Positions 51,295 through 55,403 of a stretch of DNA of 55,403 nucleotides are shown piece by piece. Both the position numbers and the translations under genes were made by a program. The stretch's first letter is position 1, and each line of letters opens with the position of its first letter. The stretch spans positions 1 through 55,403 of the forward strand of contig JASBUF010000079.1 in assembly GCA_030148085.1 (NCBI GenBank), in the 5' to 3' direction. The stretch comes from Methylophaga sp. GTDB taxonomy: Bacteria > Pseudomonadota > Gammaproteobacteria > Nitrosococcales > Methylophagaceae. The notes beneath the pieces were generated by a model. It did not search any database. It saw nothing but the letters and a program-made list of their open reading frames with translations, and was not told the DNA's origin.

Positions 51295-51938
51295 TAGTCC
51301 GATCGGTTAACGTTTCCCTACCCAAACAGGTTCAACACAAAAACAAAACCGTCTCCACCGGCATATTCAAACAGCCGGTGTCGGGACGTGTTGCGGTGAA
51401 TCAGTTCAATCTGGCTGGCGACCAGCAGGTTGATCTGGTCAATCATGGTGGTGAACACAAGGCCGTCTATGGCTTTGCTAGCGGTCATTATACCTTCTGG
51501 CAAAAAAAACTCGGACAAGCTGAAATTCACTACGGACAATTCGGTGAAAACCTGACCATTGATGGTCTGGATGAAAACTTACTGTGTATCGGTGACCAGT
51601 TACAGGTTGGCGAGTCTGTGCTCGAAATCACCCAGCCTCGGGTACCCTGCTTTAAGCTGGGACTGGCTTTTGGTCGTGAAGATATGCCCCATCTGTTTGT
51701 GGAAAACGCCGCGACCGGTATTTACTTTAGGGTGATAGAGACCGGCTCAATTGCCAGTGGTAATGACGTGAAACTGCATCAGGCACATCCGACCAAGCTC
51801 AGTGTTCAGCGCCTGTTTAAAGCCTATTTTGACAACAGCCTGCCTGAGACGGATAAAAAGGCCGTGATGCAACAGGCCTTAGAGATAGACGCCTTGTCTA
51901 TTGAGTGGCGGGAAAAACTGGAAACCCGACTGGGTTAG
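51291..51938 (+). CDS. MOSC domain protein (YiiM-like)
   Basis: 215 residues from GTG 51291, coupled to the upstream gene. The MOSC domain (about 30-165) has VNHGGEHKAVYGF, GQFGENLT.DGL and the conserved cysteine in RVPCFKLG. Similar to E. coli YiiM, which reduces 6-N-hydroxylaminopurine with molybdenum cofactor. A C-terminal 3-alpha domain of about 45 residues follows (LSVQRLFKAYFDN). No cofactor-synthesis genes are near. The end overlaps the convergent gene by four bases. Confidence 0.86.
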   Translation: MIVRSVNVSLPKQVQHKNKTVSTGIFKQPVSGRVAVNQFNLAGDQQVDLVNHGGEHKAVYGFASGHYTFWQKKLGQAEIHYGQFGENLTIDGLDENLLCIGDQLQVGESVLEITQPRVPCFKLGLAFGREDMPHLFVENAATGIYFRVIETGSIASGNDVKLHQAHPTKLSVQRLFKAYFDNSLPETDKKAVMQQALEIDALSIEWREKLETRLG

Positions 51939-52453
51939 TCTTCGGTCGGGGCGGGCTCAATGCCCAGAAAACGACGCAAGGCCCACTTCGGCAGCGTACC
52001 TACGCGGGCATGGTGTAAGGAGTCGGATTCAATCACAATCAACACCAACACACTGACCAGCGTCGGTAAGATACCCAAACCACCAATCATCGCGTAGACC
52101 GCTTCCTTCATCATGCCGAGATAGGTTTTGCCTAGCCAGCCTAGCGCAGATACTGTCACCAATAGCATCAGTATCATGAAAAAGAACTTGCTCCAGCGAC
52201 GTGCGACCTGCCAGTGTGCCCAGATAAACTCACTGTCTTCACGCTTGACCTTGCTGGAACGGTAATAGGTGTAGGCCAGTGCCGCAAACGAAAGCAGCGG
52301 CACGATGACCAGATACTTCATATAGCTCGAACCAAACGTCGCAATCGCGGTAAACAACAAAATGTGATTACCAATCAGATTGCTAAGGAAAATATCGTGC
52401 GGCACTTTGGCCGACGCCATTTCCTGTTCATTAGGCTCGGGCAGTTGACTCAC
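51935..52453 (-). CDS. Inner-membrane protein of unknown function
   Basis: 172 residues with four predicted membrane segments (about 24-40, 45-62, 90-110 and 125-148). The sequence has no recognised motif; a HARVGTLPKWALRRFLG amphipathic tail follows the last segment. It is two bases downstream of thrC and may share its transcript. No function is proposed. Confidence 0.7.
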   Translation of the reverse strand: MSQLPEPNEQEMASAKVPHDIFLSNLIGNHILLFTAIATFGSSYMKYLVIVPLLSFAALAYTYYRSSKVKREDSEFIWAHWQVARRWSKFFFMILMLLVTVSALGWLGKTYLGMMKEAVYAMIGGLGILPTLVSVLVLIVIESDSLHHARVGTLPKWALRRFLGIEPAPTED

Positions 52454-52455
52454 TA

Positions 52456-53601
52456 TTACTGCGCCATGTTGCTCAGAATGGCATCACGTACTGATTCCAG
52501 ATCAGCAGAAACAGTAACAACTGGTGCGGTGCTCTGAGAGATCGCGGTGTCAGGATCTTTCAGACCATGGCCAGTGAGCGTACAAACTATCGTGCTACCT
52601 TCAGGGATCTTGCCTGATTTGATATCACGCAATGCACCGGCCAGAGAGGTTGCTGAAGCCGGCTCACAGAACACACCTTCTTTTTCTGCCAGCAGCTTTT
52701 GCGCAGCCAGGATTTCTTCGTCTGAGCACTCATCAAACCAACCACCTGACTCTTCCTGAACTTTCCAGGCCTTGTCCCAGCTTTGTGGATGGCCGATGCG
52801 AATCGCTGTTGCGACGGTTTCTGGATCATCCACCATGTGACCACGCATAAACGGCGCACTACCTGCAGCCTGATAACCCACCATTTTTGGACGGTTACCG
52901 ACAATCGCACCGCCGGCGTATTTACAGTGTCCATCACAGTAAGCACATGAGTCAGTCACATGATCACCGGAGTTGCACGAGTATTCACAGTAACCAATCC
53001 AATGTGCTGTGATGTTACCGGCATTACCCACTGGCAGGCAGTGATAGTCAGGGGCACGGCCCAGTTCTTCAACAATCTCAAATGCCGCAGTTTTCTGACC
53101 TTGCAGACGATAAGGATTAATTGAGTTTACGATGGTGACAGGCGCATGTTCGGCCACTTCCTTAACCAGACGCATACCTTCATCAAAGTTGCCTTTGATT
53201 TGAATCACAGTGGCACCATGCATCATCGCCTGCGCCAGTTTGCCCTGTGCAATTTTGCCGTCAGGGATCAATACAAACGCGGCAATACCAGCACGTGCTG
53301 CATAGGCTGCAGCTGCCGCTGAGGTGTTACCCGTTGAGGCACAGATGATCGCTTTACTGCCTTCTTCAACAGCCTTGGTGACGGCCATGGTCATACCGCG
53401 GTCCTTGAATGAACCTGTCGGGTTCAGACCTTCGTATTTGACATAGATATCGACATCTTTACCCAGCTCTTTGGTGATGTGATTCAGCTTGATCAGTGGG
53501 GTATTACCCTCACCAAGGCTAATCAGGCGGGTATCGTCATTGACCGGCAAACGATCGCGGTAGCGTTCAATCAGTCCAGTATAACGTGGGCGAAAAGACA
53601 T
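52456..53601 (-). CDS. thrC: Threonine synthase with a cysteine-rich insertion
   Basis: 381 residues. Converts O-phosphohomoserine to threonine with PLP. It belongs to the compact bacterial type (about 350 residues, as in Bacillus), not the 430-470-residue E. coli type. The PLP lysine is in TGSFKDRG (K66) and the phosphate cup in VGNAGNIT. Just after [14 protein letters not shown] there are about 30 extra residues with Cys205, 209, 219, 222 and 226 (C-x3-C-x9-C-x2-C-x3-C) and two histidines, after which the normal fold resumes ([11 protein letters not shown]). AGAGGA precedes the ATG. It is 35 bases downstream of hom. Confidence 0.94.
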
Positions 53602-54952: not shown

Positions 54953-55403
54953 CTAAGCTTTTCTCATCATGTCACGGATCCCACGGATCGCCTGACGTGT
55001 ACGGTGTTCATTTTCAATCAAGCCGAAGCGAACGTATTCATCGCCGTATTCACCGAAACCGATACCCGGTGAGACCGCGACTTTCGCTTCCTTGAGTAAT
55101 TTTTTACTGAATTCGAGCGAGCCCATTTCACGGTATTTTTCCGGAATACGTGCCCACACAAACATGGTGGCTTTGGGTTTATCCACCTGCCAGCCAATCG
55201 CATTGAGACCATCACAAAGCACATCACGACGGTTCTTGTAGGTCTTCACAATCTCGTCAACACAGTCCTGAGGACCTTCCAGTGCGGTGATTGCCGCTAC
55301 CTGAATCGGCGTGAACATGCCGTAGTCGAGGTAAGACTTCATCCGTGCCAAAGCAGCAACCAATGTCGCATTACCAGACATAAAGCCAACGCGCCAGCCC
55401 GGC
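54953..55403 (-). CDS. alaC: Alanine transaminase AlaC, 3' part only (start lies outside the window)
   Basis: The frame stays open to the right edge, so about 150 C-terminal residues are seen. The visible part runs from PGWRVGF through [21 protein letters not shown] and [15 protein letters not shown] to the end, and closely follows the C-terminal half of E. coli AlaC, a fold-type I PLP aminotransferase forming alanine from pyruvate and glutamate. The PLP lysine lies upstream of the window. Eight bases separate it from hom; the alaC-hom-thrC order is common in gammaproteobacteria. Confidence 0.9.

Follow-up and report, generated by a model that had tools for sequence, protein, structure and literature searches.

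Compact threonine synthases (ThrC; TIGR00260) are well-studied PLP enzymes, and structures have been solved for several of them (2zsj, 6cgq/6nmx, 1uim/1v7c and 2d1f). A metal module is on record for a threonine synthase as well: in PMC5906684, 1VB3 is given as carrying a zinc ribbon of type-1B, rubredoxin-type, and the title of a 2017 article cited there places this ribbon at the N-terminus. The ThrC encoded in the window, i.e. the whole 55,403-nucleotide stretch of Methylophaga sp. DNA that was analysed, shares the fold and the catalytic core of the compact enzymes, and its internal insert, with three strictly kept cysteines, is probably the seat of a metal, either iron-sulphur or zinc, that lies apart from the active site. 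The features discussed below are as follows.

52456..53601, minus strand: thrC, compact threonine synthase of 381 aa, matching TIGR00260
53637..54944, minus strand: hom, homoserine dehydrogenase, immediately upstream of thrC (NCBIfam NF004976, 594.5 bits against a cut-off of 205)
52915..52977, minus strand: insert of 21 residues (63 nt) relative to L288, L295 and L297, residues about 209-231 (by DNA alignment, to which the coordinates refer, about 209-229)
52924..52956, minus strand: core motif T216-x2-C219-x2-C222-x3-C226, kept in triad-bearing proteins
52987..52989, minus strand: C205, at the end of helix 194-208, an optional extra Cys
52975..52977, minus strand: C209, an optional extra Cys
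52945-52947, minus strand: codon of C219
52936-52938, minus strand: codon of C222
52924-52926, minus strand: codon of C226

The thrC product scored 321.1 bits against TIGR00260 (curated cut-off 167.1), gave PALP as its only Pfam match and was the sole ThrC above the cut-off in a family search of the window's genome, the assembly of which is about 90% complete. The N-domain of the long-type ThrC (PF14821) was not present. Residues S64-F65-K66-D67-R68-G69 and V191-G192-N193-A194-G195-N196 were invariant in 53 aligned sequences, and G63 was kept in at least 90% of them; the first motif is that of the PLP lysine and the second that of the phosphate loop. The enzyme is predicted to convert O-phosphohomoserine to threonine by the same catalytic core as other compact ThrC. 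A match to hom was found in the fetched flank of 99 of the 104 thrC loci examined. A gene for a small predicted membrane protein without an NCBIfam match (51935-52453, minus strand) lies 2 bp past the thrC stop; it was rejected as an operon partner, as only four of the 104 loci had a match to it in the flank, all of them triad-bearing in the sense given below. The C-terminal part of an AlaC-like aminotransferase gene stands at the window's end (54953-55381, minus strand); of the 407-residue profile it covers no more than residues 256-396, and the gene probably continues past the window.

The earlier note on this DNA had described, inside ThrC, an insertion of about 30 residues with cysteines at 205, 209, 219, 222 and 226 and two histidines. 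All of these residues were found in place, the histidines being 214 and 225, and the first cysteine of the protein is C87. The frame is clean, as had been claimed, and a frameshift artefact was discarded, because one 381-aa frame is open throughout and the same insert is found in relatives. The insertion is real, and its length comes down to 21 residues when the protein is aligned with congeneric compact ThrC (L288, L295 and L297), where the edges shift with gap placement; in the DNA alignment the loop takes 162 nt in the window thrC and 99 nt in the same-genus compact thrC. The 31 residues first assigned to it (205-235, positions 52897-52989) include about 10 that compact ThrC share. The four closest solved ThrC, of 351-360 aa each, do lack the segment: the alignments of 2zsj, 6cgq and 1uim break between ThrC residues 207-212 and 235-237, and 2d1f is without about 20 residues, as judged by its length.

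Among 262 distinct ThrC (rows under 300 aa left out), 132 carried C219, C222 and C226, here called the triad, 35 had the insert without the triad and 95 were short. Conservation of the cysteines in relatives thus extends to these three, while C205 (Cys in 64 of the 132 triad-bearing proteins) and C209 (12/90) are optional, and neither histidine is general (H214 in 32/90, H225 in 28/90). The five-cysteine site with two histidines had to be given up, the conserved set being three only. The position of T216 is occupied by Thr in 129 triad-bearing proteins and by Cys in three (L059, L239 and L242), perhaps as the result of one or two events, the carriers being close relatives. The cysteines are spaced x2, x3 in 131 of the 132 proteins and x2, x4 in one; Gly stands two residues after the second core Cys in 126 of those 131, Tyr or Phe two after the last in 124/132, and Phe, Tyr or Trp two after the first in 101/132.

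At the three core positions TGT and TGC are used almost evenly in the 132 distinct proteins (64/68, 56/76 and 56/76), so codons change while the Cys stays, more than by chance, a result to be read bearing in mind that the triad itself defines this class. Since the invariance of the triad is partly a matter of definition, the class was redefined by insert length. It then held 167 proteins, of which 132 had all three cysteines; the other 35, scored by alignment-free best fit, had none (21), one (8) or two (6). By alignment columns, in a smaller set, exactly two core cysteines were seen in 2 of 24 (L139, C-H-C, and L135, T-C-C). A cooperative site would be expected to go in just this nearly all-or-none manner. 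Co-evolution of the triad with residues elsewhere in the protein was set aside: I202, R237, E284 and Y164 were enriched in triad-bearing ThrC, but supported branches gave 6 independent pairs, a number too small to build on.

Further cysteines drift through the insert region. At least one non-core Cys occurs there in 106 of the 132 triad-bearing proteins, over more than ten positions; exactly one is found in 78, against a Poisson expectation of 48.5, and none in 26. Cys density reaches 3.9% in the rest of the insert region versus 1.5% in the rest of the protein. At the C205 position, 90 sequences gave Cys (47), Ser (33), Thr (9) and Arg (1), and C205 was dropped as a fixed fourth ligand in view of its count of 64/132. 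C205 and another extra Cys tend not to occur together (odds ratio 0.42; naive p 0.023, with kinship ignored), at best a sign of weak compensation. No fourth ligand is invariant among the 132 proteins, and no column at residues 227-274 has Cys in more than 50% of them; a drifting Cys acting as the fourth ligand is plausible.

In a set of 80 homologous loci taken from named genomes, the insert of 24 has the motif C-x2-C-x3(4)-C; the titles of these include Candidatus Thiodiazotropha, Venteria ishoeyi, Halothiobacillus, Cycloclasticus, Nitrococcus, Acidithiobacillus, Ferrovum and a betaproteobacterial bin. Of 369 genomes drawn across the class, 198 matched the ThrC profile with an E-value no worse than 1e-60. 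The 93 one-stretch matches, all of which were compared, comprised 66 with the triad, 10 with the insert without it and 17 with neither; 105 were broken or partial, and the 17 of these fetched among the matches listed gave 16 short ThrC and one cut by a contig end. The triad occurs, then, in at least 66 of the 198 matching genomes, and the idea of an insert private to the window's genome was abandoned on the counts from both samples. Within the order to which the window belongs, matches came from 60 of 63 genomes, and the 50 compared included 30 with the triad, 19 with a short ThrC and one (L282) with a thrC frame broken near the insert, the second piece of which holds the triad (assembly error or pseudogene). 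A phylum-wide draw of 398 genomes gave 76 matches, 68 of them outside the class and most of these in one family (f207); none of the 21 full ThrC compared from outside the class had the insert (partial row L204 left out), which was also absent from L075, L076, L078, L079 and L080 of other phyla or classes. As far as this limited sampling goes, no insert was met outside the Gammaproteobacteria as GTDB defines them. Methylomonas and relatives (L031, L037, L041, L042, L043, L048, L060, L067 and L077) have a shorter extension of the same loop without the triad (28 versus 23 residues), so loop length varies in several ways.

The ThrC tree of 196 rows, which was made by a quick method with the insert columns left out and contains long branches, needs 22 changes of the triad state (at least 6 on well supported branches), 15 of insert presence (at least 4 well supported) and 14 of insert-without-triad (at least 5 well supported). 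Rooted on the cyanobacterial ThrC L080, which is a weak rooting, the tree has triad-bearing lineages close to the base of the gammaproteobacterial clade and so suggests an early gain followed by many losses. For the window's order, the ThrC tree needs three changes of the triad label, one of them from L282, labelled short, whereas the tree of the adjacent Hom (48 rows, L282 left out) needs eight, at least six of them forced; this difference points to an exchange of insert-bearing and insert-free thrC alleles, next to hom, among close relatives. The ThrC of L295 is short, while its Hom stands very near those of the insert-bearing L248, L249, L252 and L253 on the tree; L288 and L255, too, have closely related (near-identical or sister) hom genes next to ThrC with and without the insert. 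That either version serves close relatives, ThrC copies having been counted by family search in the window's genome, speaks for a role of the insert in tuning the enzyme and not in making catalysis possible, and natural pairs with nearly the same hom and a ThrC with or without the module (L295 against the four just named) make its role cleanly testable.

The AlphaFold2 model of the window ThrC, based on the 53-row alignment, had a mean pLDDT of 88.9 and a pTM of 0.89. The predicted order is strand 186-190, helix 194-208, coil 209-238 and strand 239-245, and the insert is predicted, with fair confidence (blocks 86 and 84), as coil throughout. The 15-residue helix, which spans about 22 Å, starts in VGNAGN, which in this fold is the PLP-phosphate loop, and the insert follows it; by this order the insert would be across the large domain from PLP, at the opposite helix end from the cofactor. 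From this order of secondary-structure elements, the location near the active-site entrance proposed in the earlier note is not supported. Foldseek against PDB placed solved ThrC first, with 52-54% identity to the compact ones and TM-scores of 0.79-0.88, yet with an rmsd of about 11-13 Å; such an rmsd despite those TM-scores probably means that some portion of the model is positioned otherwise, and its global geometry was not relied on.

The Acinetobacter-type ThrC (e.g. L045 of Acinetobacter towneri, 379 aa) has an insert at the same site and is of nearly equal length, but all three cysteines are replaced (V, D, D). The same replacement, with insert length nearly kept, was seen in Acinetobacter and relatives (L045, L046, L047, L052-L056 and L058). 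The L045 insert, Cys-less as it is, was predicted to hold a short turn of helix and strands of two residues each (blocks 90 and 93), with higher confidence than the Cys-bearing insert, so order in the loop as such needs no Cys. The prediction is no more than suggestive of an apparent metal-free remake of the module, another way to order the loop.

The idea of a zinc or Fe-S site survives in that the pattern of conserved cysteines suits a metal, although the make-up of five cysteines and two histidines does not. Since C-x2-C-x3-C matches real [4Fe-4S] motifs, iron-sulphur is somewhat favoured and zinc is a close rival. Our tentative preference, which falls just short of even, is for a structural or regulatory [4Fe-4S]-type iron-sulphur knuckle on C219, C222 and C226, outside catalysis. 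The wide occurrence of the triad (132/262), its nearly all-or-none state among the 167 proteins with the insert and the 14 tree changes of the insert-without-triad state (at least 5 well supported) agree with it. The motif with its aromatic residue is that of Molybdop_Fe4S4, CPYCGVGC, as retrieved from L303, L307 and L309, i.e. for three of eight loci from relatives, the pattern having caught an upstream ferredoxin-type stretch in the other five. If T216 is counted, the spacing becomes that of the ferredoxin CxxCxxCxxxC, and Cys is the sole substitute at this position, an argument weakened by the other cysteines common in the loop (C205, 64/132). Complex-I ferredoxin-type subunits made up 30 of the 35 PDB neighbours of the insert profile, but all were weak (best E 0.16) and not significant, and two others were BCL11A and BCL11B, which we take to be zinc-finger proteins. 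The excess of proteins with one extra Cys (78 against 48.5), the Cys-rich insert region and the fair AlphaFold2 confidence on the insert are also in keeping with a cluster, whereas the Cys-less insert of L045 was predicted with the higher confidence. Against a cluster stand the lack of an invariant fourth ligand and the weak compensation among extra cysteines. Known Molybdop_Fe4S4 and ferredoxin [4Fe-4S] motifs have further ligands outside the short loop, and no conserved downstream Cys corresponds to these at residues 227-274. No Pfam iron-sulphur family matched the whole ThrC, nor the three triad-bearing inserts of the 132 that were searched, at E up to 10. L139, which reads C-x2-H-x3-C, also speaks against iron-sulphur, the Cys-to-His swap being commoner for zinc sites.

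That swap, together with the two BCL11 proteins, counts for a structural zinc knuckle, in which C219, C222, C226 and a variable fourth ligand (Cys, His, Asp or water) would order the loop with no redox role. We regard it as distinctly possible: the knuckle C-x2-C-x-G-x-C is compact (Gly in 126/131), a drifting fourth Cys is at hand in 106/132, and a different zinc ribbon is reported for the threonine synthase 1VB3 in PMC5906684. Of the four conserved ligands that such a knuckle would call for, three are invariant and the fourth is variable or absent. It fits less well with the 26 of 132 proteins that have no extra Cys in the insert region, with the missing Cys column at 227-274 and with a spacing that copies [4Fe-4S] motifs. 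A metal-free thiol switch, with a disulphide made or broken to alter loop order and activity, could make use of three close cysteines in one loop that are lost nearly together; we consider it unlikely, as a disulphide needs two cysteines, yet three are kept at the fixed 2,3 spacing (131/132) and only 6 of the 35 triad-less inserts match two positions. Finally, the loop might be a dispensable surface element without specific function, its cysteines being inherited baggage. Insert-free ThrC in close relatives, even beside a nearly identical hom (L295), and the repeated losses on the ThrC tree are what such a loop would leave, but synonymous change of the Cys codons and the bimodal loss of the triad do not fit drift, and we hold this explanation to be very improbable.

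If the preferred iron-sulphur reading is correct, a small metal-binding knuckle would have been grafted where the helix that begins in the PLP-phosphate loop reaches its C-terminus, with C219, C222 and C226 as three ligands; the fourth would be T216, a drifting Cys (in this protein C205 or C209) or some remote residue, unless the site is left open. Assembly of the cluster would order the loop and hold the helix carrying the PLP-phosphate loop; with iron short or the cluster oxidised the loop might relax, and activity or stability might drop. The metal and its identity, its distance from PLP and its effect on activity are all points that we infer here rather than show. In its widest and more doubtful form, the proposal is that a sizeable share of gammaproteobacterial compact ThrC are unrecognised three-Cys [4Fe-4S] proteins built on a fold-type II PLP enzyme, through which threonine synthesis would sense iron or oxygen, this control being lost with the cysteines, with the insert or by a swapped-in insert-free allele. 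Should the insert bind either zinc or a cluster, many gammaproteobacteria would depend on metal supply for one step in making amino acids, a dependence missed by structures and annotation, the solved structures found being without the module.

Each of the known systems resembles the insert in part. Molybdop_Fe4S4 (PF04879) shares the C-x2-C-x3-C spacing and the aromatic residue at the second place behind the first Cys, but the insert gave no match to this profile, has no conserved downstream Cys and alone has Thr at -3. The ferredoxin motif CxxCxxCxxxC has equal spacing if T216 is taken for its first Cys, and three relatives do have Cys there, whereas this position is Thr in 129/132 and no Pfam ferredoxin family was matched. 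The zinc ribbon of 1VB3 is likewise a Cys metal module (putative in the window ThrC) in a threonine synthase; unlike the N-terminal ribbon type, the window ThrC has no Cys before C87, and its module is internal, with a single C-x2-C-x3-C. No description of an internal ThrC insert was found in the open-access literature, a scope that most subscription papers fall outside. Thus, threonine synthase and its zinc ribbon are already known, and the internal three-Cys insert is, with respect to that literature, apparently new.
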